DNA of 64,000 nucleotides. Source: a bacterium. GTDB lineage: Bacteria; Actinomycetota; Acidimicrobiia; Acidimicrobiales; Bin134. Shown one piece after another: positions 4,123 through 31,470 of the stretch; the stretch's first letter is position 1, and each line of letters begins with the position of its first letter. The position numbers and the translations under genes are program-made. Location of the stretch: assembly GCA_028819295.1 (NCBI GenBank), contig JAPPMA010000106.1, forward strand, positions 62,001 through 126,000, read 5' to 3'. The notes under the pieces were generated by a model, which was not told where the DNA came from, did no database searches, and was given only the letters and a program-made list of their open reading frames with translations.

Positions 4123-4321
4123 CGGTTGCCTCCGCTCCGGGCCACCAGCAGCCCGAACGCTCTCAGCCGACGGTACCGGCGCGCCGCCCCCTCCGACTAG
4201 CTGTACCAGAGCTTCGCCAGAACTGCTAGCAGATGAAACACCGTGTGGCACATCTTGGATGAAATAAGTCAGATCTGCACTCGATGGGTGCAAGACTCAG
4301 GGGACGGTGCAGGAGCAAGAT

Positions 4322-5656
4322 GTGACAATCAACTTGGACGGCAGTCCATACAGCCTGGTAGAGACCGGCAAGTGGGCTGTAGAAAAAGCCGCGGATCTAG
4401 AAAGGCGAGTTGATCTCCTTCGCAATGGGGGTCAGCTCACTGAGCAGACTCTTCGAGCCTATTTCGGGGATACCCGGTTTGAGCAGATCGCCGAGTCGAA
4501 TGCCATCGAGGGAAGCACGCTGAGTACTGGTGAAACCGAGCTTGCGATCATGCAGGGCATCACGGTCACTGGTCACGATCCAGCCTTTTCCAGAGATGCC
4601 ATTAACCTTTCGAACGCCTTGAAGCGATTGGTTGAATTGGCTAAGGAGCCTTCGGCCACTGACATCGACCAGGTCAAGGAGCTGCACGGGCTCATCCTTG
4701 CCGACGCTTCCACCGCTAGCCTTTTTCGCTCTCAACCGGTCCGAATTTCTGGCTCACCCCACGTCCCTCCCGCCACCTGGCAAGAGGTAATGGCTGGGAT
4801 GGAGGATTGGGAACGCTGGTCTAGAAACAACGCCGAGGCATCAGCCCTGCTTCGAGCCATCGTGCTCCATACTTGGCTGACCCATATCCATCCCTTTGCT
4901 GATGGAAATGGACGAACATCTCGTGCAGTGTTGAATCTTGAGCTGATCCGAGCAGGACTGCCCAGCATCATTATCCGGCGCAAGGATCGCTTGAGGTATT
5001 ACGAAGCGCTAGCAGAGTCTGACTTGGGTGGAGATCTAGGACCGATCGTAGAGTTGGTGGTCGAGCGCGCTAAGGACGCCTTGAACCGGTTGGAGCGCGC
5101 AGCTACTGCTCAGGAAGGCTACGACCGTGCTCGGGCTGAGCTCATTGAGGCACAGAAGCGCCAGGTTGGTATTTGGAACGATGCAGTGCGCTTACTCTTC
5201 TCGCTCATCGGCGATGCCCTCGAAGCCGCCTTTGAGGATATCGGCCGAGTCTCTACGTTCTGGTACGAAGACGAATTGGCCATTGACGATTTCGTCTCGC
5301 TTTCTCAAGGGAGCGCGGTGGGAAGATCCTGGCTTTTTCGGATCAATGCTGAGGTTTCGGGGTTTGAAGGCCAGCGCTACCTAGCTTGGACTGGATACCG
5401 AAGCGATCAGATGCGTCTCGGCCAAGAGATAGGTTATGGCCCGTCCATTTTCTGGTCGGTTCCAGACCAATCTGGAGACAGAAAATGGGTCCGAGATGAG
5501 TCACAGTCCCCTGGATTTGCCGAACTAACCCTTGAGCTGCCCAATGTCGATCAGTGGATCGGCAGGCTCCCAGATGGGGATATCCGCAAATTCAGGCCAA
5601 GTAGAGCAGCGAGACGGGTAGCTGAGAGCATCCTCTCAGCAATCAAGACATCCTAG
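4322..5656 (+). CDS. Fic-domain protein (AMP-transferase type)
   Basis: 444 residues. The Fic core HPFADGNGRTSR is intact at about 190-201, with the catalytic histidine first and the phosphate-binding G-N-G-R after it. An N-terminal SNAIEGS (about 59-65) fits the inhibitory helix of class II Fic proteins, so activity is probably self-restrained. Family members move AMP or another nucleotide part onto a protein hydroxyl; the target is unknown. The GTG at 4322 has AGGAG six bases upstream; a GTG at 4307 is a weaker choice. Base use is visibly less GC-rich than in the sdh genes, suggesting transfer. Its TAG stop lies inside the CTAG that borders the mobile segment. Confidence 0.87.
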   Translation: MTINLDGSPYSLVETGKWAVEKAADLERRVDLLRNGGQLTEQTLRAYFGDTRFEQIAESNAIEGSTLSTGETELAIMQGITVTGHDPAFSRDAINLSNALKRLVELAKEPSATDIDQVKELHGLILADASTASLFRSQPVRISGSPHVPPATWQEVMAGMEDWERWSRNNAEASALLRAIVLHTWLTHIHPFADGNGRTSRAVLNLELIRAGLPSIIIRRKDRLRYYEALAESDLGGDLGPIVELVVERAKDALNRLERAATAQEGYDRARAELIEAQKRQVGIWNDAVRLLFSLIGDALEAAFEDIGRVSTFWYEDELAIDDFVSLSQGSAVGRSWLFRINAEVSGFEGQRYLAWTGYRSDQMRLGQEIGYGPSIFWSVPDQSGDRKWVRDESQSPGFAELTLELPNVDQWIGRLPDGDIRKFRPSRAARRVAESILSAIKTS

Positions 5657-5710: not shown

Positions 5711-5738
5711 GTATTTATCCCCATTTGGGGATAAATAC
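5711..5738. repeat. Perfect 12-bp inverted repeat, 4-base loop
   Basis: GTATTTATCCCC is followed by ATTT and then its exact complement. This is the first strong hairpin in a gene-free stretch of about 820 bases (5657-6480). It is AT-richer than its surroundings and could act as a terminator for fic, a binding site for a dimeric protein, or part of a transposon end. No protein-coding role is visible. Confidence 0.85.
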
Positions 5739-5791
5739 ACAGGGAATCCCCAGGGTCTCCCCTTACAACTGTCAAACGGCACGCCTAAAAT

Positions 5792-5868
5792 GAGACGCGA
5801 TTGAGCCGGGACGGGCAACACCGCTCTAGCAGGGAAGCGCCGCTCGTCCCGGCTCAATCTTGCGTCTC
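5792..5868. repeat. Long imperfect inverted repeat, 22/24-base arms
   Basis: The arms at 5792-5813 and 5845-5868 pair over GAGACGC...TTGAGCCGGGACG with only a two-base bulge, around a 31-base middle. Such a long stem could form in RNA or as a DNA cruciform. It is the second of several strong hairpins before the IS1595-type transposase. Confidence 0.85.
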
Positions 5869-5998
5869 TAGGTACGCTTGTGTGCAGGATAGCGGTTGTC
5901 ACCTATCACTGACAAGCCTCCTGACCAGGCGCGATACGTTGGTTCTCTCGTTTTCCCTGGTTACGCGCGAGTATCGGGAATGAAATTATTTGGGACTT

Positions 5999-6143
5999 AG
6001 AGGCCGCGCGGATAGGCGCTGACCTGCGGAAACGTCCGAAGCTCTGACTGGGGCTTCGGAGTCTTGACCTGCGGCTTTGCTCAGAACAGCCGCGGTCGAA
6101 ACAAAATCTGCTGAGATTCGCGTCACCTATCCGCGCAGCCTCT
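5999..6143. other. Candidate structured RNA: four-way junction
   Basis: An outer stem pairs 5999-6016 with 6126-6143 (17 of 18 bases). Inside it three hairpins stand side by side: 6035-6042 with 6053-6060 (8 bp), 6066-6076 with 6088-6097 (10 bp with one bulge), and 6105-6109 with 6114-6118 (5 bp around GCTG). This closed cloverleaf-like layout is unlikely by chance and no convincing ORF overlaps it. It does not look like a tRNA or any riboswitch I know. The strand is unknown. Only the pairing is seen; function is inference. Confidence 0.5.
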
Positions 6144-6174
6144 TATATCCGGTTTTAGCCAAGCGTGAAAGCGA

Positions 6175-6289
6175 GGGCCTTTCGGCGAGCGCAGACATGA
6201 CACACACCCCGCATCCCGACCGGAAGGCCCGCACACGATGGTAGCAGGTCGCCACGGTTGTGAGATTGTCCCGGTGTCGCCCTGCTACC
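6175..6289. repeat. Two further inverted repeats before the transposase
   Basis: GGGCCTTTCGG at 6175-6185 pairs with CCGGAAGGCCC at 6220-6230 (10 of 11). GGTAGCAGG at 6240-6248 pairs perfectly with CCTGCTACC at 6281-6289. They continue the hairpin array that starts at 5711. The stretch 6290-6480 holds one small AGGGGA/TCCCCT hairpin near 6320 and presumably the transposase promoter, though no clear -35/-10 pair was found. Confidence 0.7.
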
Positions 6290-6480
6290 GGGGGTCTGCT
6301 CCGGCAGTTCGCCCAGGTTCACAGGGGAGTTGTGAGTTCCCCTCCGCTGGGCGGCTGTCGGGGCAGCCGCATGTCAAGCATACCGAGTGATCCATTCGGC
6401 CTGTATGTATTCGCCGCAAGATGGGTATGGATTGAAAGTTATAGAAAATAAACTGTCACTCCTTCCGGTACAATGTGTGC

Positions 6481-7488
6481 ATGGAGAGTACGACCAGCGA
6501 GAAGAAGCACAAGGCACCGGGCCGCAGCGAGCGCCGGGGCGTCACGGTCATGGACGCCGTGCGGATGTTTGACACCGAGGAGAAGGCCGAAGCGTGGTTC
6601 GTCGCCCAGCGCTGGCCCAGCGGCGTGTATTGCCCGCACTGCGGCTCCAAGAACGTTGCCGACGTGAAGTCCCGCAGGCCCCAGCCGTGGCGGTGCTGCG
6701 ACTGCCGCAGGCACTTCTCGGTCAAGACCGGCACGATGATGCACTCCAGCAACATCGAGCTGTCCAAGTGGGCCATGTGCATCTACCTGTACAGCACCAA
6801 CCAGAAGGGCGTTTCGTCCATGAAGTTGCACCACGACTTGGGCATCGGCGAGAAGGCGGCTTGGTACATGGCGCATAGGATCAGGCAGGCGTGGGACACC
6901 CGCGAGGAGCCGTTCGCAGGCCCAGTCGAGGCCGACGAGTCCTACTTCGGCGGCAGGGAGAAGAACAAGCACGCCAGCAAGAAGCTGAGGGCCGGGCGCG
7001 GCACGGTCGGCAAGACGGCGGTGGCCGGTGTCAAGGACCGCGCCACCAACAAGGTCCATGCCGAGGTCGTCGAACACGCCGACACGCCGACACTGACCGG
7101 CCTTGTCGCCGGAAGCGCCGAATCCGGGGCTACTGTGTTCACAGACGAGTGGAGGGCGTACAACCCGCTGGAGGAGATGGGCTACACACACGGCAAGGTG
7201 AGGCACTCGGTCGGCCAGTACGTGGACGGCATGGCCAACACGAACGGGATCGAGAGCTTCTGGGCCATGATGAAGCGCGGCTACCACGGCACTTACCACC
7301 AGGTGTCGCCTGAGCATCTGAACCGCTACGTGGCGGAGTTCCGCGGGCGTCACGACCAGCGGCCCAGGGACACGCTGGCGCAGATGTCGGAGGTCGTGCG
7401 GGGCGCCGACGGGAAGCGGACCACATACGGCGAGCTGATCGCCAGCGGGCCGCACGCACGTAAGATGATGGAAGAATTGGCGGCATGA
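6481..7488 (+). CDS. IS1595-family transposase
   Basis: 335 residues. The N-terminal zinc ribbon has C51, C54, C72 and C75 (YCPHCG and RCCDC). The DDE-type core shows D152 in EADESYFGG, D222 in FTDEWRAY and E258 in NTNGIESFW, the IS1595/ISXO2 pattern. The protein cuts and rejoins DNA at the ends of its element. No damage is visible, so it may be active. The ATG at 6481 is preferred to a GTG two codons earlier; no strong ribosome site is present. Its stop overlaps the next ATG (ATGA), linking it to the passenger genes. Confidence 0.93.
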   Translation: MESTTSEKKHKAPGRSERRGVTVMDAVRMFDTEEKAEAWFVAQRWPSGVYCPHCGSKNVADVKSRRPQPWRCCDCRRHFSVKTGTMMHSSNIELSKWAMCIYLYSTNQKGVSSMKLHHDLGIGEKAAWYMAHRIRQAWDTREEPFAGPVEADESYFGGREKNKHASKKLRAGRGTVGKTAVAGVKDRATNKVHAEVVEHADTPTLTGLVAGSAESGATVFTDEWRAYNPLEEMGYTHGKVRHSVGQYVDGMANTNGIESFWAMMKRGYHGTYHQVSPEHLNRYVAEFRGRHDQRPRDTLAQMSEVVRGADGKRTTYGELIASGPHARKMMEELAA

Positions 7489-7757
7489 CGGAACGTTTCA
7501 AATGGGTGTTGATCGCTGCCGTCGTGCTTGCCGGGCCGGTCAACTTCCTGATTGTCGGCAAGGGCTCGGAGTGCAACGACCCCGATCCCAAGTATGGGTG
7601 TGGCTACCACCGAGGGATGGATCGGTGGTACGACTTCCCCGGCTGGTACCCAGAACCGCTCGCCAACCCCTTGGGGTTCTGGCTGCCAATGGCGGTTTCA
7701 GCCATTGCCCTGTTCATCGGCTACTGCGAGTGGGGTTCGTGGAGGCGGGAGGCATGA
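7485..7757 (+). CDS. Small membrane protein in the transposon operon
   Basis: 90 residues. One hydrophobic segment lies at about 7-24 (WVLIAAVVLAGPVNFLIV) and another at about 64-81; the loop between them has two cysteines and many tryptophan, tyrosine and proline residues. It overlaps the transposase stop and the methyltransferase start by four bases each (ATGA both times), so it is translated as part of one unit. I do not recognise the family. It may be a passenger gene with a role at the membrane unrelated to restriction. Confidence 0.7.
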   Translation: MTERFKWVLIAAVVLAGPVNFLIVGKGSECNDPDPKYGCGYHRGMDRWYDFPGWYPEPLANPLGFWLPMAVSAIALFIGYCEWGSWRREA

Positions 7758-8812
7758 CAGTCAACGCGTCGCTAGGCAGTAGGGAACAGGAGTTCGCTGC
7801 AATCTCAGATGCCCTGAGTGCGGCCATGGTTGACCAGACGGCTCAGTCAATCGTGGCATTGGGTGACTCGTTGGAGTTGCTGAGAAGGCTGCCAGACAAC
7901 AGCATTTCGCTGATCCTGTGCGATCCCCCATACCACTCCACACACAAATCCAACATTCGCGGCGACAAGGCTTTCACGGCAGATTCCGCTTTCTTGGAAT
8001 GGCTGTGCTCCTTCGCCTCCGAGTGGCAGCGGATTCTGAAGCGCTCTGGCACCGTGTATGTGTTCTGCTCCTCTCGCATGGCCAGCCGCCTTGATGTGGC
8101 GATATCCGACTACTTCCTGCCTGTGAGCAGTATCACATGGACGAAGCCCAACGAACCTGGGTTCGATGGGTGGAAGGGCAAGATGAGCAAGGAGTCGTTG
8201 CGCCAGTGGTACCCGCATTCCGAGCGAATCCTCGTCTTTGAGCAGGGTGCCTACGGTGACCACATGGCAACTCGCGAAACACCACTAAGCGCGTACCTCA
8301 AACAGTGCAGGAAAGCCGCAGGCATGACCGCCAAAGACTTGACCGGAATTGTCGGGGCGCATGGCCGGGTGAATCATGGCGGTGCCGTCTCAAACTGGGA
8401 GACTGGGCGCAATGTTCCCAGCAGGGACCAGTATGAGCGCATGGTGGATGCCTTGGAAGATACTGGCTGTGTCGGCACCATGCTCCCGTACAACGACATA
8501 GTGCGACCCATGAACTTGAGCAGGGATGTGGAGTTCACCGACGTGTGGGCATTCCCCAGTGTGAGGCCGTACAAGGGGAAGCACCCGGCAGAGAAGCCGT
8601 TGGAGATGATGTCCCACGTTGTCGAGGCTTCCAGCTATCCCGGAGATGTGGTGCTGGATTGCTTCGCCGGGTCGGGGGCCACGGGAGTGGCATCGGTGCT
8701 GGCGGGCCGCAGGACCGTCTGCATGGACATAGAGGAGAAGTGGGCCAAGCGAACAGCGTTGAACATTACCGAGGCCCTTGTCGGGGAGGCACAAGGAGCG
8801 TTCCCGCTATAG
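7754..8812 (+). CDS. DNA methyltransferase (DPPY, beta-class order) with an internal helix-turn-helix
   Basis: 352 residues from an ATG just after GGGAGG. Motif IV DPPY is at 57-60 and the AdoMet-binding motif FAGSG at 304-308; this order (IV before I) is that of beta-class amino-methyltransferases, which modify adenine N6 or cytosine N4. Between them, about residues 175-235, an XRE-like helix-turn-helix can be read (AYLKQCRKAAGMTAKDL then GAVSNWETGRNVPS). It probably protects host DNA from the convergent nuclease; the stops overlap by six bases. The recognition site cannot be read from sequence. Confidence 0.88.
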   Translation: MTVNASLGSREQEFAAISDALSAAMVDQTAQSIVALGDSLELLRRLPDNSISLILCDPPYHSTHKSNIRGDKAFTADSAFLEWLCSFASEWQRILKRSGTVYVFCSSRMASRLDVAISDYFLPVSSITWTKPNEPGFDGWKGKMSKESLRQWYPHSERILVFEQGAYGDHMATRETPLSAYLKQCRKAAGMTAKDLTGIVGAHGRVNHGGAVSNWETGRNVPSRDQYERMVDALEDTGCVGTMLPYNDIVRPMNLSRDVEFTDVWAFPSVRPYKGKHPAEKPLEMMSHVVEASSYPGDVVLDCFAGSGATGVASVLAGRRTVCMDIEEKWAKRTALNITEALVGEAQGAFPL

Positions 8813-9796
8813 CCCCCCGGCGAATGCCTGATTGTCCAGAACCTGACGCATCCATGCGAGTGCCCCCTCAATGCCGTCGTCCTTCACGACTACGTTGCAG
8901 TGGTGATGGCCCCAGCCGAGGTTGTACGGACGATGTCCTAGTGTCCCAACCCTGAGTTCGGATATGTGGAAGAGGCTCACTTCTGTAGTCGTGAGGTCGC
9001 GCGTCTCCCTGCCTTCTGCTTGCTCAGTCCGCTGGAGGAAGGCGCTCACGTAGATAGGCTCCAAGCATAAGGGGCAGCAGGTTTCCAGTTCCGAGTTGAT
9101 GATGCGGGCCTCCAGCAAACGTGGGATGTCCAGCAGTCCGGCATCCTCGGCGGCGTGCAGCGCCAGGTCCATTGCCTGCCCGGCCTCGTCGGAGTTGACG
9201 AATTCCGGCGATAGGTCTTGAAGTGCGTTTCGGCATAGCCACAGAAGTGCCTCCAACTGCACCTTGCAGCGGTAGATCGTCTCTGATGAGGCGTACTCGA
9301 ATACACGTATCCCCGCACCCCGCAGGCTGCTATTGTTGAAGCCCTCGATCACCTGTTCCGCTGCGTCCGACGTGGTGGCGTGGATTCGGGCGAAGTAGTT
9401 GCCACCTAGCGGGGCCGTTCTGGAGTCGGCAACTGCCAGTGGGGTGCCGTCGTGGAGGCGTGTGTCCAGCGGCCCGTATTCCTCCCAATCAGAGCGGACT
9501 TCGTAGAGCAGCAGAGCATTCACTCCCAAGTGGATGCCCTGGGATTCCAGATGCTCATGACTGCCTGCACCGGCGAAGTACCACGACGGCTCCACCAAGA
9601 CAACAAACCCCTTCTCATATGCCTCGGCGGCTTCCGGTTTGCAAGCGTCCCACGACTTTCGGGGGATCAGCACCGTGTTGTTGCGTGTGACTCTGTTCTG
9701 GTAGATCGTGTTCTTCTCAGCGCCGCGTGTGTACCCGGTTTTCGTCAGCTTGTCGTGAATGAACTTGGGGAGGCCGCTTTGCCGACCGCTCGGCAT
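8807..9796 (-). CDS. HNH-type restriction endonuclease, BstXI-like
   Basis: 329 residues. The C-terminal third has a zinc/HNH-type arrangement: CCPLCLEP (C241, C244), H277 in FHISEL, H288, and GWGHHHCNVVVKDDG (297-308), the last part being the likely nuclease finger. The final block resembles what I recall of BstXI-family enzymes; this is from memory and is the uncertain part. A convergent methyltransferase next door supports a type II restriction-modification pair. The promoter must lie in the short gap 9797-9832. The N-terminal 230 residues show no motif I know and may hold the DNA-recognition part. Confidence 0.65.
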   Translation of the reverse strand: MPSGRQSGLPKFIHDKLTKTGYTRGAEKNTIYQNRVTRNNTVLIPRKSWDACKPEAAEAYEKGFVVLVEPSWYFAGAGSHEHLESQGIHLGVNALLLYEVRSDWEEYGPLDTRLHDGTPLAVADSRTAPLGGNYFARIHATTSDAAEQVIEGFNNSSLRGAGIRVFEYASSETIYRCKVQLEALLWLCRNALQDLSPEFVNSDEAGQAMDLALHAAEDAGLLDIPRLLEARIINSELETCCPLCLEPIYVSAFLQRTEQAEGRETRDLTTTEVSLFHISELRVGTLGHRPYNLGWGHHHCNVVVKDDGIEGALAWMRQVLDNQAFAGGL

Positions 9797-9832
9797 GAAG
9801 GGAACCTACCCATCCAGATCTGCGGTGGACCA

Positions 9833-10134
9833 ATGCACGACAGCATATGGCTGAGCGACAAGCAGTGGGAGCGCATCGTCTCGCCGCTCCCGTTCTAGTC
9901 CGGCCACAATGGACGACCGTACACCGGCGACCACCGGACCACCTTCGAGGGAATCCTCTGGCTCATGCGAACCGGAGTGCCCTGGAGGGATCTGCCCGCC
10001 TAATACGGCCCGTGGAACACGGTCTATCGGCGCTTCAAGCGGTGGGAGACGAAAGGTGCGTTCGACCGGGTGACTGCCTCGCTCGGGCCGGACCACGACT
10101 ACACCACGCTACACCACAGCTTTGTCAACAGGCC
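9833..10134 (+). pseudogene. IS5-family transposase remnant
   Basis: From the ATG at 9833 the reading MHDSIWLSDKQWERIVSPLP, then after an in-frame TAG a [20 protein letters not shown] stretch, then [11 protein letters not shown], another stop and YGPWNTVYRRFKRWE, matches the N-terminal DUF4096 region of IS5-type transposases. Two nonsense codons (near 9896 and 10002) and loss of the catalytic C-terminal part make it dead. It runs into CTTTGTCAACAGGCC, a typical terminal repeat, at 10120-10134. The next 120 bases up to 10255 hold no gene I can see. Confidence 0.85.
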
Positions 10135-29556: not shown

Positions 29557-30552
29557 ATGGCCCGAGATCTGGCGATCGACCTGGGCACGGCGAACACGCT
29601 GGTCTACGCCCGCGGCCAGGGGATCATCTTGAACGAGCCCTCGGTTATCGCCCTGAACCGCAAGACCAACGAAGTGCTGGCCATGGGGCGTGAAGCGTGG
29701 CAGATGATCGGCCGCACTCCCGCGCACATCGTGGCCGTCCGCCCCCTGCGAAAGGGGGCCATAACCGATTTCGAGGTCACGCAGCGCATGATCCGCCTGC
29801 TGCTCGTACGCGCCGGGGTGAATCGTTTCAGCCGTCCCAAGGTGGTCATCTGTGTGCCGTCGGCGATCACCGCCGTCGAGCGCCGGGCAGTGGTTGAGGC
29901 TGCTCGGCGAGCGGGGGCGGCCGAGACGCGGCTCATCGAGCAGCCGCTCGCCGCGGCCATCGGAGCATCCCTGCCCATTCACGATCCTGTGGGCAACGTG
30001 GTGGTTGACATCGGCGGGGGAACCAGCGAAACCGCGCTCATCTCCCTGGGCGGGGTGATCGCGCTCAAGGCCATCCGGGTGGGCTCGTTCGACATGGACG
30101 CTGCGATCCAGTCCTATGTCCGCCACGAGTTCGGTATTGCCATCGGCGAGCGCACGGCCGAGGAGGTCAAAATCACCATCGGCTCCGCGGCGTATGTCGC
30201 CGGCGAGTGCAGCGCCGAGGTTCGAGGCCGCAATCTCATGAACGGCCTGCCGGAGACCATCGTGCTGTCTCCGTTCGAGGTGCGAGCAGCAATCGGGGAG
30301 CAGGTGCTGTCAATCGTGGACTCGGTGGTGTCATGTCTGGTGGAGGCGCCTCCGGAGCTGTCGCAGGATGTGATCTCCCGCGGCATTCACCTGGTCGGGG
30401 GCGGGTCGCTTCTGCGGGGATTGGGGGAACGGCTGTCGCAGGCCGCTGATGTGCCGGTCAGCCTGGTGGACACCCCTCTGGAGGCGGTGGTGATCGGGGC
30501 GGGCCGATGCCTGGAGTCATTCGAAGACGTCCAGGCCATGTTCATGGAGTGA
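29557..30552 (+). CDS. mreB: MreB-family actin-like protein
   Basis: 331 residues. Actin-fold nucleotide motifs are present: AIDLGTANTLVYARGQG (phosphate 1), VVDIGGGTSETALISLGG (phosphate 2) and HLVGGGSLLRGLGERL (adenosine). MreB forms membrane-bound filaments that guide wall synthesis in rod cells. No mreC, mreD, pbp2 or rodA follows, so this copy stands outside the usual mre cluster; it may be an extra MreB or an Mbl-like form. Confidence 0.9.
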   Translation: MARDLAIDLGTANTLVYARGQGIILNEPSVIALNRKTNEVLAMGREAWQMIGRTPAHIVAVRPLRKGAITDFEVTQRMIRLLLVRAGVNRFSRPKVVICVPSAITAVERRAVVEAARRAGAAETRLIEQPLAAAIGASLPIHDPVGNVVVDIGGGTSETALISLGGVIALKAIRVGSFDMDAAIQSYVRHEFGIAIGERTAEEVKITIGSAAYVAGECSAEVRGRNLMNGLPETIVLSPFEVRAAIGEQVLSIVDSVVSCLVEAPPELSQDVISRGIHLVGGGSLLRGLGERLSQAADVPVSLVDTPLEAVVIGAGRCLESFEDVQAMFME

Positions 30553-30577
30553 GCCCGGGCCATGGGGTGGCGGGGCG

Positions 30578-31186
30578 CTAGCCGGGATCCAACAGCAGCT
30601 CGGCGGCGTCTCTTGTCTGCCAGTCGCTGTCCGTCGAGGCTCGGCGGAGGGCGGCTTCCACCTCCGGACCCTCGAACGGCGCCAGGGCGAGCACCGCACG
30701 GCGGCGCACGGCCACCCGGTCGGCGGTTGCCGCCAGGATGGCGTCGAGTCCCGCGGGGTGGCCGATGGCCCCCAGGGCGGCGACCGCCGCCTCCCGCACC
30801 AGGGGATTGGAGTGTCCGCCGGCCAGCTCGGCCAAGCAGGACACGGTGTCGTGATCGGCCGCCTCTTTTTCTCCACAGGCCCAGGCGGCGGTCTCGGCCA
30901 CGCCGTCGCTCGGGTCGTGAAGCAGCGGGGCCGGCGACACATCCGGGTGCTCGGTGGTCAGGGCCGCGGCTCGCATACGCACTTTCGGCGACGGATCGCT
31001 GAGCGCGCCCCGCAGCTCACCATCGCCCAGCGCTCCCATCCGGTTTAGAGCACTTAGTGCCGATGCCCGCACCCGGGGGTCTTTGTCGCTCTTGGCGGCC
31101 CGCGCCGTGTTCGCGTCGCCAAGGTAGCCGGCGATCACCACACCGCGTCGGCCTAATTCCTGGGGGTCTTCTCTTGGTTCGCTCAC
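30578..31186 (-). CDS. HEAT-repeat protein
   Basis: 202 residues from a GTG overlapping the upstream stop (GTGA). Repeated helical units are visible: DPRVRASALSALNRMG, DPSPKVRMRAAALT, NPLVREAAVAALGAIGHPAG and RVAVRRRAVLALAPFEG, typical of HEAT/PBS-lyase repeats that bind proteins. No enzymatic motif. It is translationally coupled to the small membrane protein at 31183-31470, which may be its partner. Confidence 0.8.
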   Translation of the reverse strand: MSEPREDPQELGRRGVVIAGYLGDANTARAAKSDKDPRVRASALSALNRMGALGDGELRGALSDPSPKVRMRAAALTTEHPDVSPAPLLHDPSDGVAETAAWACGEKEAADHDTVSCLAELAGGHSNPLVREAAVAALGAIGHPAGLDAILAATADRVAVRRRAVLALAPFEGPEVEAALRRASTDSDWQTRDAAELLLDPG

Positions 31187-31470
31187 ACCAGTGTTTCCAG
31201 CGCGATGGTGACGCCCACGAAGAACAATCCCACCAGCATGGTCAGCCCTGCTCCCAGCAAGACGATCACAAAGAACAGGCCGACGCCGGCCCGTAGGCGC
31301 TGCCACCATCGAAACCGCGCCTCTTCGCCGTACTCGGCCCGGTAGGAGGCCAAAACATCCCTCTCGGCCCGTGCCTCTCGCCATGTTTCCCAACGGTGCT
31401 GCCACCTGCTTCTCAGCGTTCTCCAAGTATCGTCGGAGAGGGAAGTACGAATGCGCGACCAGTCGACCAC
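31183..31470 (-). CDS. Small membrane protein coupled to the HEAT gene
   Basis: 95 residues from the GTG at 31470. The N-terminal half is charged and tryptophan-rich (WRTLRSRWQHRWETWREARAE), the C-terminal third is a hydrophobic hairpin (VGLFFVIVLLGAGLTMLVGL). The start overlaps the divergent YlbL-type gene by 20 bases and has a weak ribosome site, so it is not certain. I do not recognise the family. Coupling to the HEAT-repeat gene is clear from the GTGA overlap. Confidence 0.6.
   Translation of the reverse strand: MVDWSRIRTSLSDDTWRTLRSRWQHRWETWREARAERDVLASYRAEYGEEARFRWWQRLRAGVGLFFVIVLLGAGLTMLVGLFFVGVTIALETLV

Follow-up and report, generated by a model that had tools for sequence, protein, structure and literature searches.

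A cloverleaf-like hairpin array in an Acidimicrobiales genome is a MITE nested in a restriction-modification transposon, next to a separate candidate RNA hairpin

Ahead of a transposase gene in an Acidimicrobiales bacterium lies a short region, 5711-6289, that is crowded with hairpins. The question is whether these hairpins form one folded structure or several things that happen to lie together. We have analysed it within a 64,000-nt stretch of DNA (the window; contig JAPPMA010000106.1, positions 62,001 to 126,000). A sequence-only reading had pointed out the array, including an outer stem that encloses three hairpins like a cloverleaf, and had offered a new structured RNA, a transposon-end structure or a protein-binding array as explanations. 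Here, we show that the hairpins are a nest of unrelated elements and not a single structure. It is highly probable that a MITE sits in an IS1595 transposon carrying a BstXI-type pair, that the hairpins of the transposon leader show no sign of selection on their pairing, and that the hairpin at 5799-5859 is a separate element, most likely an RNA one.

The inverted repeats are real. At least five strong ones had been claimed, and all were found at or near the positions described: 5711-5723/5726-5738 (13/13 paired), 5799-5816/5842-5859 (17/18), 5999-6016/6126-6143 (17/18, with three predicted hairpins inside), 6175-6185/6220-6230 (10/11) and 6240-6255/6274-6289 (14/16). The stretch is also gene-free as described, with no convincing gene from the stop codon of fic (5656) to the start of the transposase gene (6475). 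With stems counted from 11 pairs upwards and no more than 10% mismatch allowed, six were scored in the region, which correspond to five distinct stems as the outer one was entered in two registers; 300 dinucleotide shuffles gave a mean of 0.28 and a maximum of 2, and none matched the region. A comparison of 219 segments of this size along the 64 kb gave the highest number of paired bases for the segment that begins at 5801. When the window's own genome and 60 relatives were searched, the 815-bp stretch turned out to be a mosaic whose parts differ in their distribution.

The cloverleaf, with its apparent four-way junction, is an ordinary, non-autonomous IS5-type MITE of 143 bp (6000-6142, plus strand). 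Its outer stem exists because the two terminal inverted repeats of the MITE (6000-6016 and 6126-6142) face each other. The element is flanked by the two copies of a TTA target duplication (5997-5999 and 6143-6145), and the sister species G012 has the empty site. Elsewhere, 5996-6145 appears again as one unit between unrelated flanks, within the genus as well as in further families of the order; relatives recognised by the terminal repeat or more were found in 20 of the 171 sampled genera of the order, plus the window's own genus. Fourteen further copies could be aligned, all at unrelated sites, and a copy is present in the public genome Acidimicrobiaceae bacterium APA_bin_4. Nearly all copies cut out by script are exactly 143 bp long, and matching 3-bp TWA (TTA or TAA) duplications border 10 of the 13 such copies that have both flanks; two further matching duplications were read by eye in the copies at loci L027 and L053. 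One genome (G137) holds two identical copies at different sites. With 143 bp and no gene, the MITE is without coding capacity, and no exact match of its pattern was found in viral contigs.

The 17-19 bp ends of the MITE also flank autonomous elements of ∼975 bp across the order, whose 280-aa transposase carries the domains DUF4096 and DDE_Tnp_1, both above cut-off (IS4/IS5-type). In the genome G018, a copy of the window MITE (99% identical over 148 bp) occurs together with an intact ∼975-bp IS5-type element, and that element directly adjoins a different miniature element that shares these ends. No intact IS5-type transposase of this partner kind was found in the window's own assembly, only truncated ones, which counts against this explanation. 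The MITE is presumably mobilised in trans. Duplications of the 3-bp TNA form would suggest the IS1031 group within the IS5 family.

Several variants of the MITE were also seen. A copy on contig C84 of the window's own genome (L002, 1200-1610) has an interior enlarged by tandem repeats and partly N-masked in the assembly. A second subfamily with the same terminal repeats and another interior was seen at L056 (1326-1470) and at L030 (1376-1520; contig C18 of the window's own genome), and in G018 this subfamily directly adjoins the intact IS5-type element. A 240-250 bp element in G170 (contig C96; L044, about 1503-1750) combines the MITE ends with the C-terminal coding end of an IS5-type transposase, and is likely an internal-deletion step towards a MITE.

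Could the cloverleaf still be a functional structured RNA, such as a leader or a non-coding RNA of the IS1595 transposase? We consider this very improbable, and the cloverleaf as RNA is already largely refuted. Its predicted fold is very stable, with -81.8 kcal/mol and z = -7.0 for the 161-nt stretch; the opposite strand folds just as well (z about -7 on both), as a DNA palindrome will do even when it is never transcribed. More in favour of an RNA, two internal boxes, TGACCTGCGGAAACG and TTGACCTGCGGCTTTGC, are kept at fixed positions across the aligned copies; mere mobility would not require this conservation, and it counts against the MITE as the best explanation. Against an RNA stands the alignment of 15 MITE copies, including that of the window. 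RNAalifold retained the terminal stem plus two fragments of 3 bp. When the fold of the window copy was imposed on all 15, the terminal helix was paired in 83% of cells and the three inner hairpins in 53-62%, no better than shuffles. The covariation score of the inner hairpins, 0.187, lies under the shuffled mean of 0.197 and was reached by 365 of 500 shuffles. Each copy folds its own way, and the inner hairpins are particular to the window copy. The sequence-only reading had tied its RNA to covariation across homologues; since the terminal-repeat stem alone is kept and the inner helices are neither conserved nor covarying, that idea falls on its own terms for the cloverleaf. Moreover, the dispersed copies do not adjoin IS1595 transposases, and the cloverleaf is absent from the IS1595 unit of G012. 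The Rfam search that had been proposed for the array brought up no family at gathering score, for the cloverleaf or any other part of the region, and at relaxed thresholds gave chance hairpin matches only (microRNA-type and c4); a search of the region for tRNA and tmRNA found none. An attC-like integron site was also considered for the cloverleaf and dropped, because what is conserved are terminal repeats bordered by TWA duplications.

Of the options first offered for the array, a transposon structure thus holds for the cloverleaf, as a complete MITE, and not as an end structure or leader of the IS1595 element. The MITE is nested in an IS1595-family transposon with restriction-modification passengers, which spans approximately 5992-9843 on the plus strand; its left end is at about 5991-5992 and its right end, not exact, at about 9832-9843. 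The transposon encodes an IS1595-family transposase (6475-7488, plus strand; DDE_Tnp_IS1595 and zinc ribbon, Pfam PF12762 and PF12760), a DNA methylase with an HTH insert (7754-8812, plus strand; Pfam N6_N4_Mtase, start codon picked by eye) and a BstXI-type restriction endonuclease (8807-9796, minus strand; Pfam RE_BstXI, E = 2.8e-106). The sister species G012 holds these genes in the same order, with 82% identity in the transposase part and 92% in the methylase-endonuclease part; its unit is split over two contigs, each of which ends, as judged by eye, in a further insertion sequence.

On contig C114 of G012 there is a MITE-free empty site, GGGACCTATATC, where the window reads GGGACTTA-MITE-TTATATC. 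Taking the MITE and one TTA out of the window leaves TTATTTGGGAC-TTA-TATCCGGTTTTAGCC, and G012 has ATGAATGGGAC-CTA-TATCTGGCTTTAGCC with no insert. As the sequence common to the two starts at about TGGGAC, the left end of the transposon lies there and the MITE about 5 bp inside it. For the right end, neither a good terminal repeat nor an 8-bp target duplication of the IS1595 unit was found; homology to G012 stops at window position 9843, beside an IS5-type remnant. This remnant of a transposase gene (9833-10000; MHDSIWLSDKQWERIV...) contains in-frame stops and lies directly at the right edge of the unit. We argue that an IS5-type transposase, acting in trans, presumably inserted the MITE into the IS1595 transposon, 5 bp in from its left end, and that the split end could now immobilise the unit. 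The locus is a clear example of a restriction-modification transposon whose end was broken up by a MITE, with the empty site in a sister species, and it illustrates that nested mobile elements can mimic a complex folded RNA.

The hairpins at 6175-6230 and 6240-6289 belong to the leader of the same transposon (6146-6474, plus strand). It had been suggested that homologous leaders be compared for kept pairing; between the window and one sister copy, that of G012, the stems were not maintained. Twelve of the 82 predicted pairs are broken in G012 with one double change, substitutions are equally common at paired and unpaired positions, and the leader of G012 folds much more weakly. With 12/82 pairs broken, we rejected these hairpins as a conserved RNA. 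Judged by this comparison, the 6175-6289 hairpins appear to be plain IS1595 leader sequence with no sign of selection on pairing.

While a new structured RNA does not hold for the cloverleaf, there is some support for one in the separate hairpin at 5799-5859, on the opposite strand. This stem-loop, which we call element B (5797-5861, minus strand), is a candidate structured RNA whose stem varies while its apex (5817-5840, minus strand GCGCTTCCCTGCTAGAGCGGTGTT) is conserved. The apex GCGCTTCCYTGCTAGAGCGGTGT (minus strand) is kept in the genomes G008 (with a small change), G001 and G079 and on contig C41 of the window's own genome, and the stems of G008, C41, G001 and the genus g59 differ yet still pair. 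Among five sequences, 8 of the 20 pairs have two-sided changes, and the covariation score was reached in none of 500 shuffles; the same was found with eight sequences (0/500). In the first syntenic set of g59, for example, the stem GCGCCGC/GCGGCGC is changed to GCGTCGC/GCGACGC. We take this covariation, which comes from few independent lineages, as good but not final evidence, because the sequences compared are related to one another and also served to derive the structure. There was no credible match for element B in Rfam, and a literature search gave no report of RNAs like it in Acidimicrobiales. From its sequence pattern, element B is a credible candidate for a small, unnamed hairpin-RNA family, and most likely would be either a short RNA or an RNA element that acts where transcripts end in intergenic spacers.

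A search of about 400 Acidimicrobiia genomes placed element B at 13 loci in two genera, some of them syntenic. A scan with the core pattern, allowing one mismatch in 397 genomes, matched the window, C41, G001 and G079, while the reversed control had no matches. Further copies detected by a covariance model came almost exclusively from the second genus, g59, and a second model found the element in 9 of 11 g59 genomes; the copies of G401, G403 and G404 were absent from the set used to build this second model. Model matches under about 30 bits (G119, G045, G002 and G001:C186) were not taken as element B. The genus g59 has two syntenic sites, one between an enoyl-CoA hydratase-like and a glutamate-synthase-type gene (named by eye) and one behind a different gene.

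How element B may work has to be weighed against two other readings. At five independent loci besides the window, it lies 33-88 bp past a stop codon in the same direction as that gene, and the loci besides the window are mostly between convergent genes. In its position and its long GC-rich stem, element B resembles an intrinsic terminator, and it could be a hairpin of the terminator type that acts through its stem alone. We think this rather unlikely, since no T-run follows the stem, and the ∼23-nt apex is kept while the stem sequence is replaced between loci; a terminator needs the opposite. The conserved apex over a variable stem would also fit a small mobile hairpin of DNA, recognised at its apex in single-stranded form by a recombinase or transposase, and so would the patchy spread, in which a genome has one or two copies and the loci change. 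This we consider unlikely, as element B points the same way as the gene upstream of it at each of the five independent loci besides the window, is syntenic across g59 species and has no match in collections of phages, plasmids and viral contigs. The most far-reaching interpretation is an undescribed Acidimicrobiales structured RNA family with element B (minus strand, 5861-5797) as a member, in which the ∼23-nt apex would bind a partner, the stems would be rebuilt at each locus and the place would shift between species; this is plausible, but somewhat less likely than not. As a small candidate family, element B is testable and provides a modest new lead.

A promoter-like TTGTCA-18-TATCCT lies upstream of element B (5886-5915, minus strand; consensus match only). 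Such sequences are convincing in the window and G001 copies only, and a promoter of its own was rejected for element B, with support in just two copies. Two copies in the window's own genome adjoin fic genes (4307-5656 in the window; 228-1655 of L087 for the C41 copy). Between the two Fic proteins, identity is just 27% over 237 residues, and different genes neighbour the remaining copies of element B; the link to fic is therefore probably a coincidence.

Among known systems, the MITE is closest to the IS5-family MITEs of prokaryotes, for example the archaeal one partnered with ISMma12 in Methanosarcina acetivorans, which has 140 bp, 16-bp repeats and 3-bp duplications; the paper that describes it also gives the common view that MITEs rely on the transposase of a partner in trans (PMC3852290). 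The two are alike in size (140 and 143 bp), inverted repeats (16 and 17-18 bp), 3-bp target duplication, lack of an open reading frame and an IS5-family partner. They differ in host and sequence, and the element described here has few copies per genome, is distributed across many genera within a single order and has two conserved internal boxes.

Passenger genes also occur in other transposons of the IS1595 family. The transposon of the window resembles these in its DDE_Tnp_IS1595 and zinc ribbon domains and in accessory genes that travel together in two species; it differs in its passengers, a methylase and an endonuclease of the BstXI type, and in having a MITE that splits its left end.

Two minor observations concern other inverted repeats of the window. 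The perfect 13-bp hairpin at 5711-5738, with a loop of 2 and no strand assigned, was picked up by the inverted-repeat search and stands alone, having no relative outside its own place in the window's own genome and 60 relatives. By simple count, 30451-31320 is a second stretch dense in GC-rich inverted repeats.
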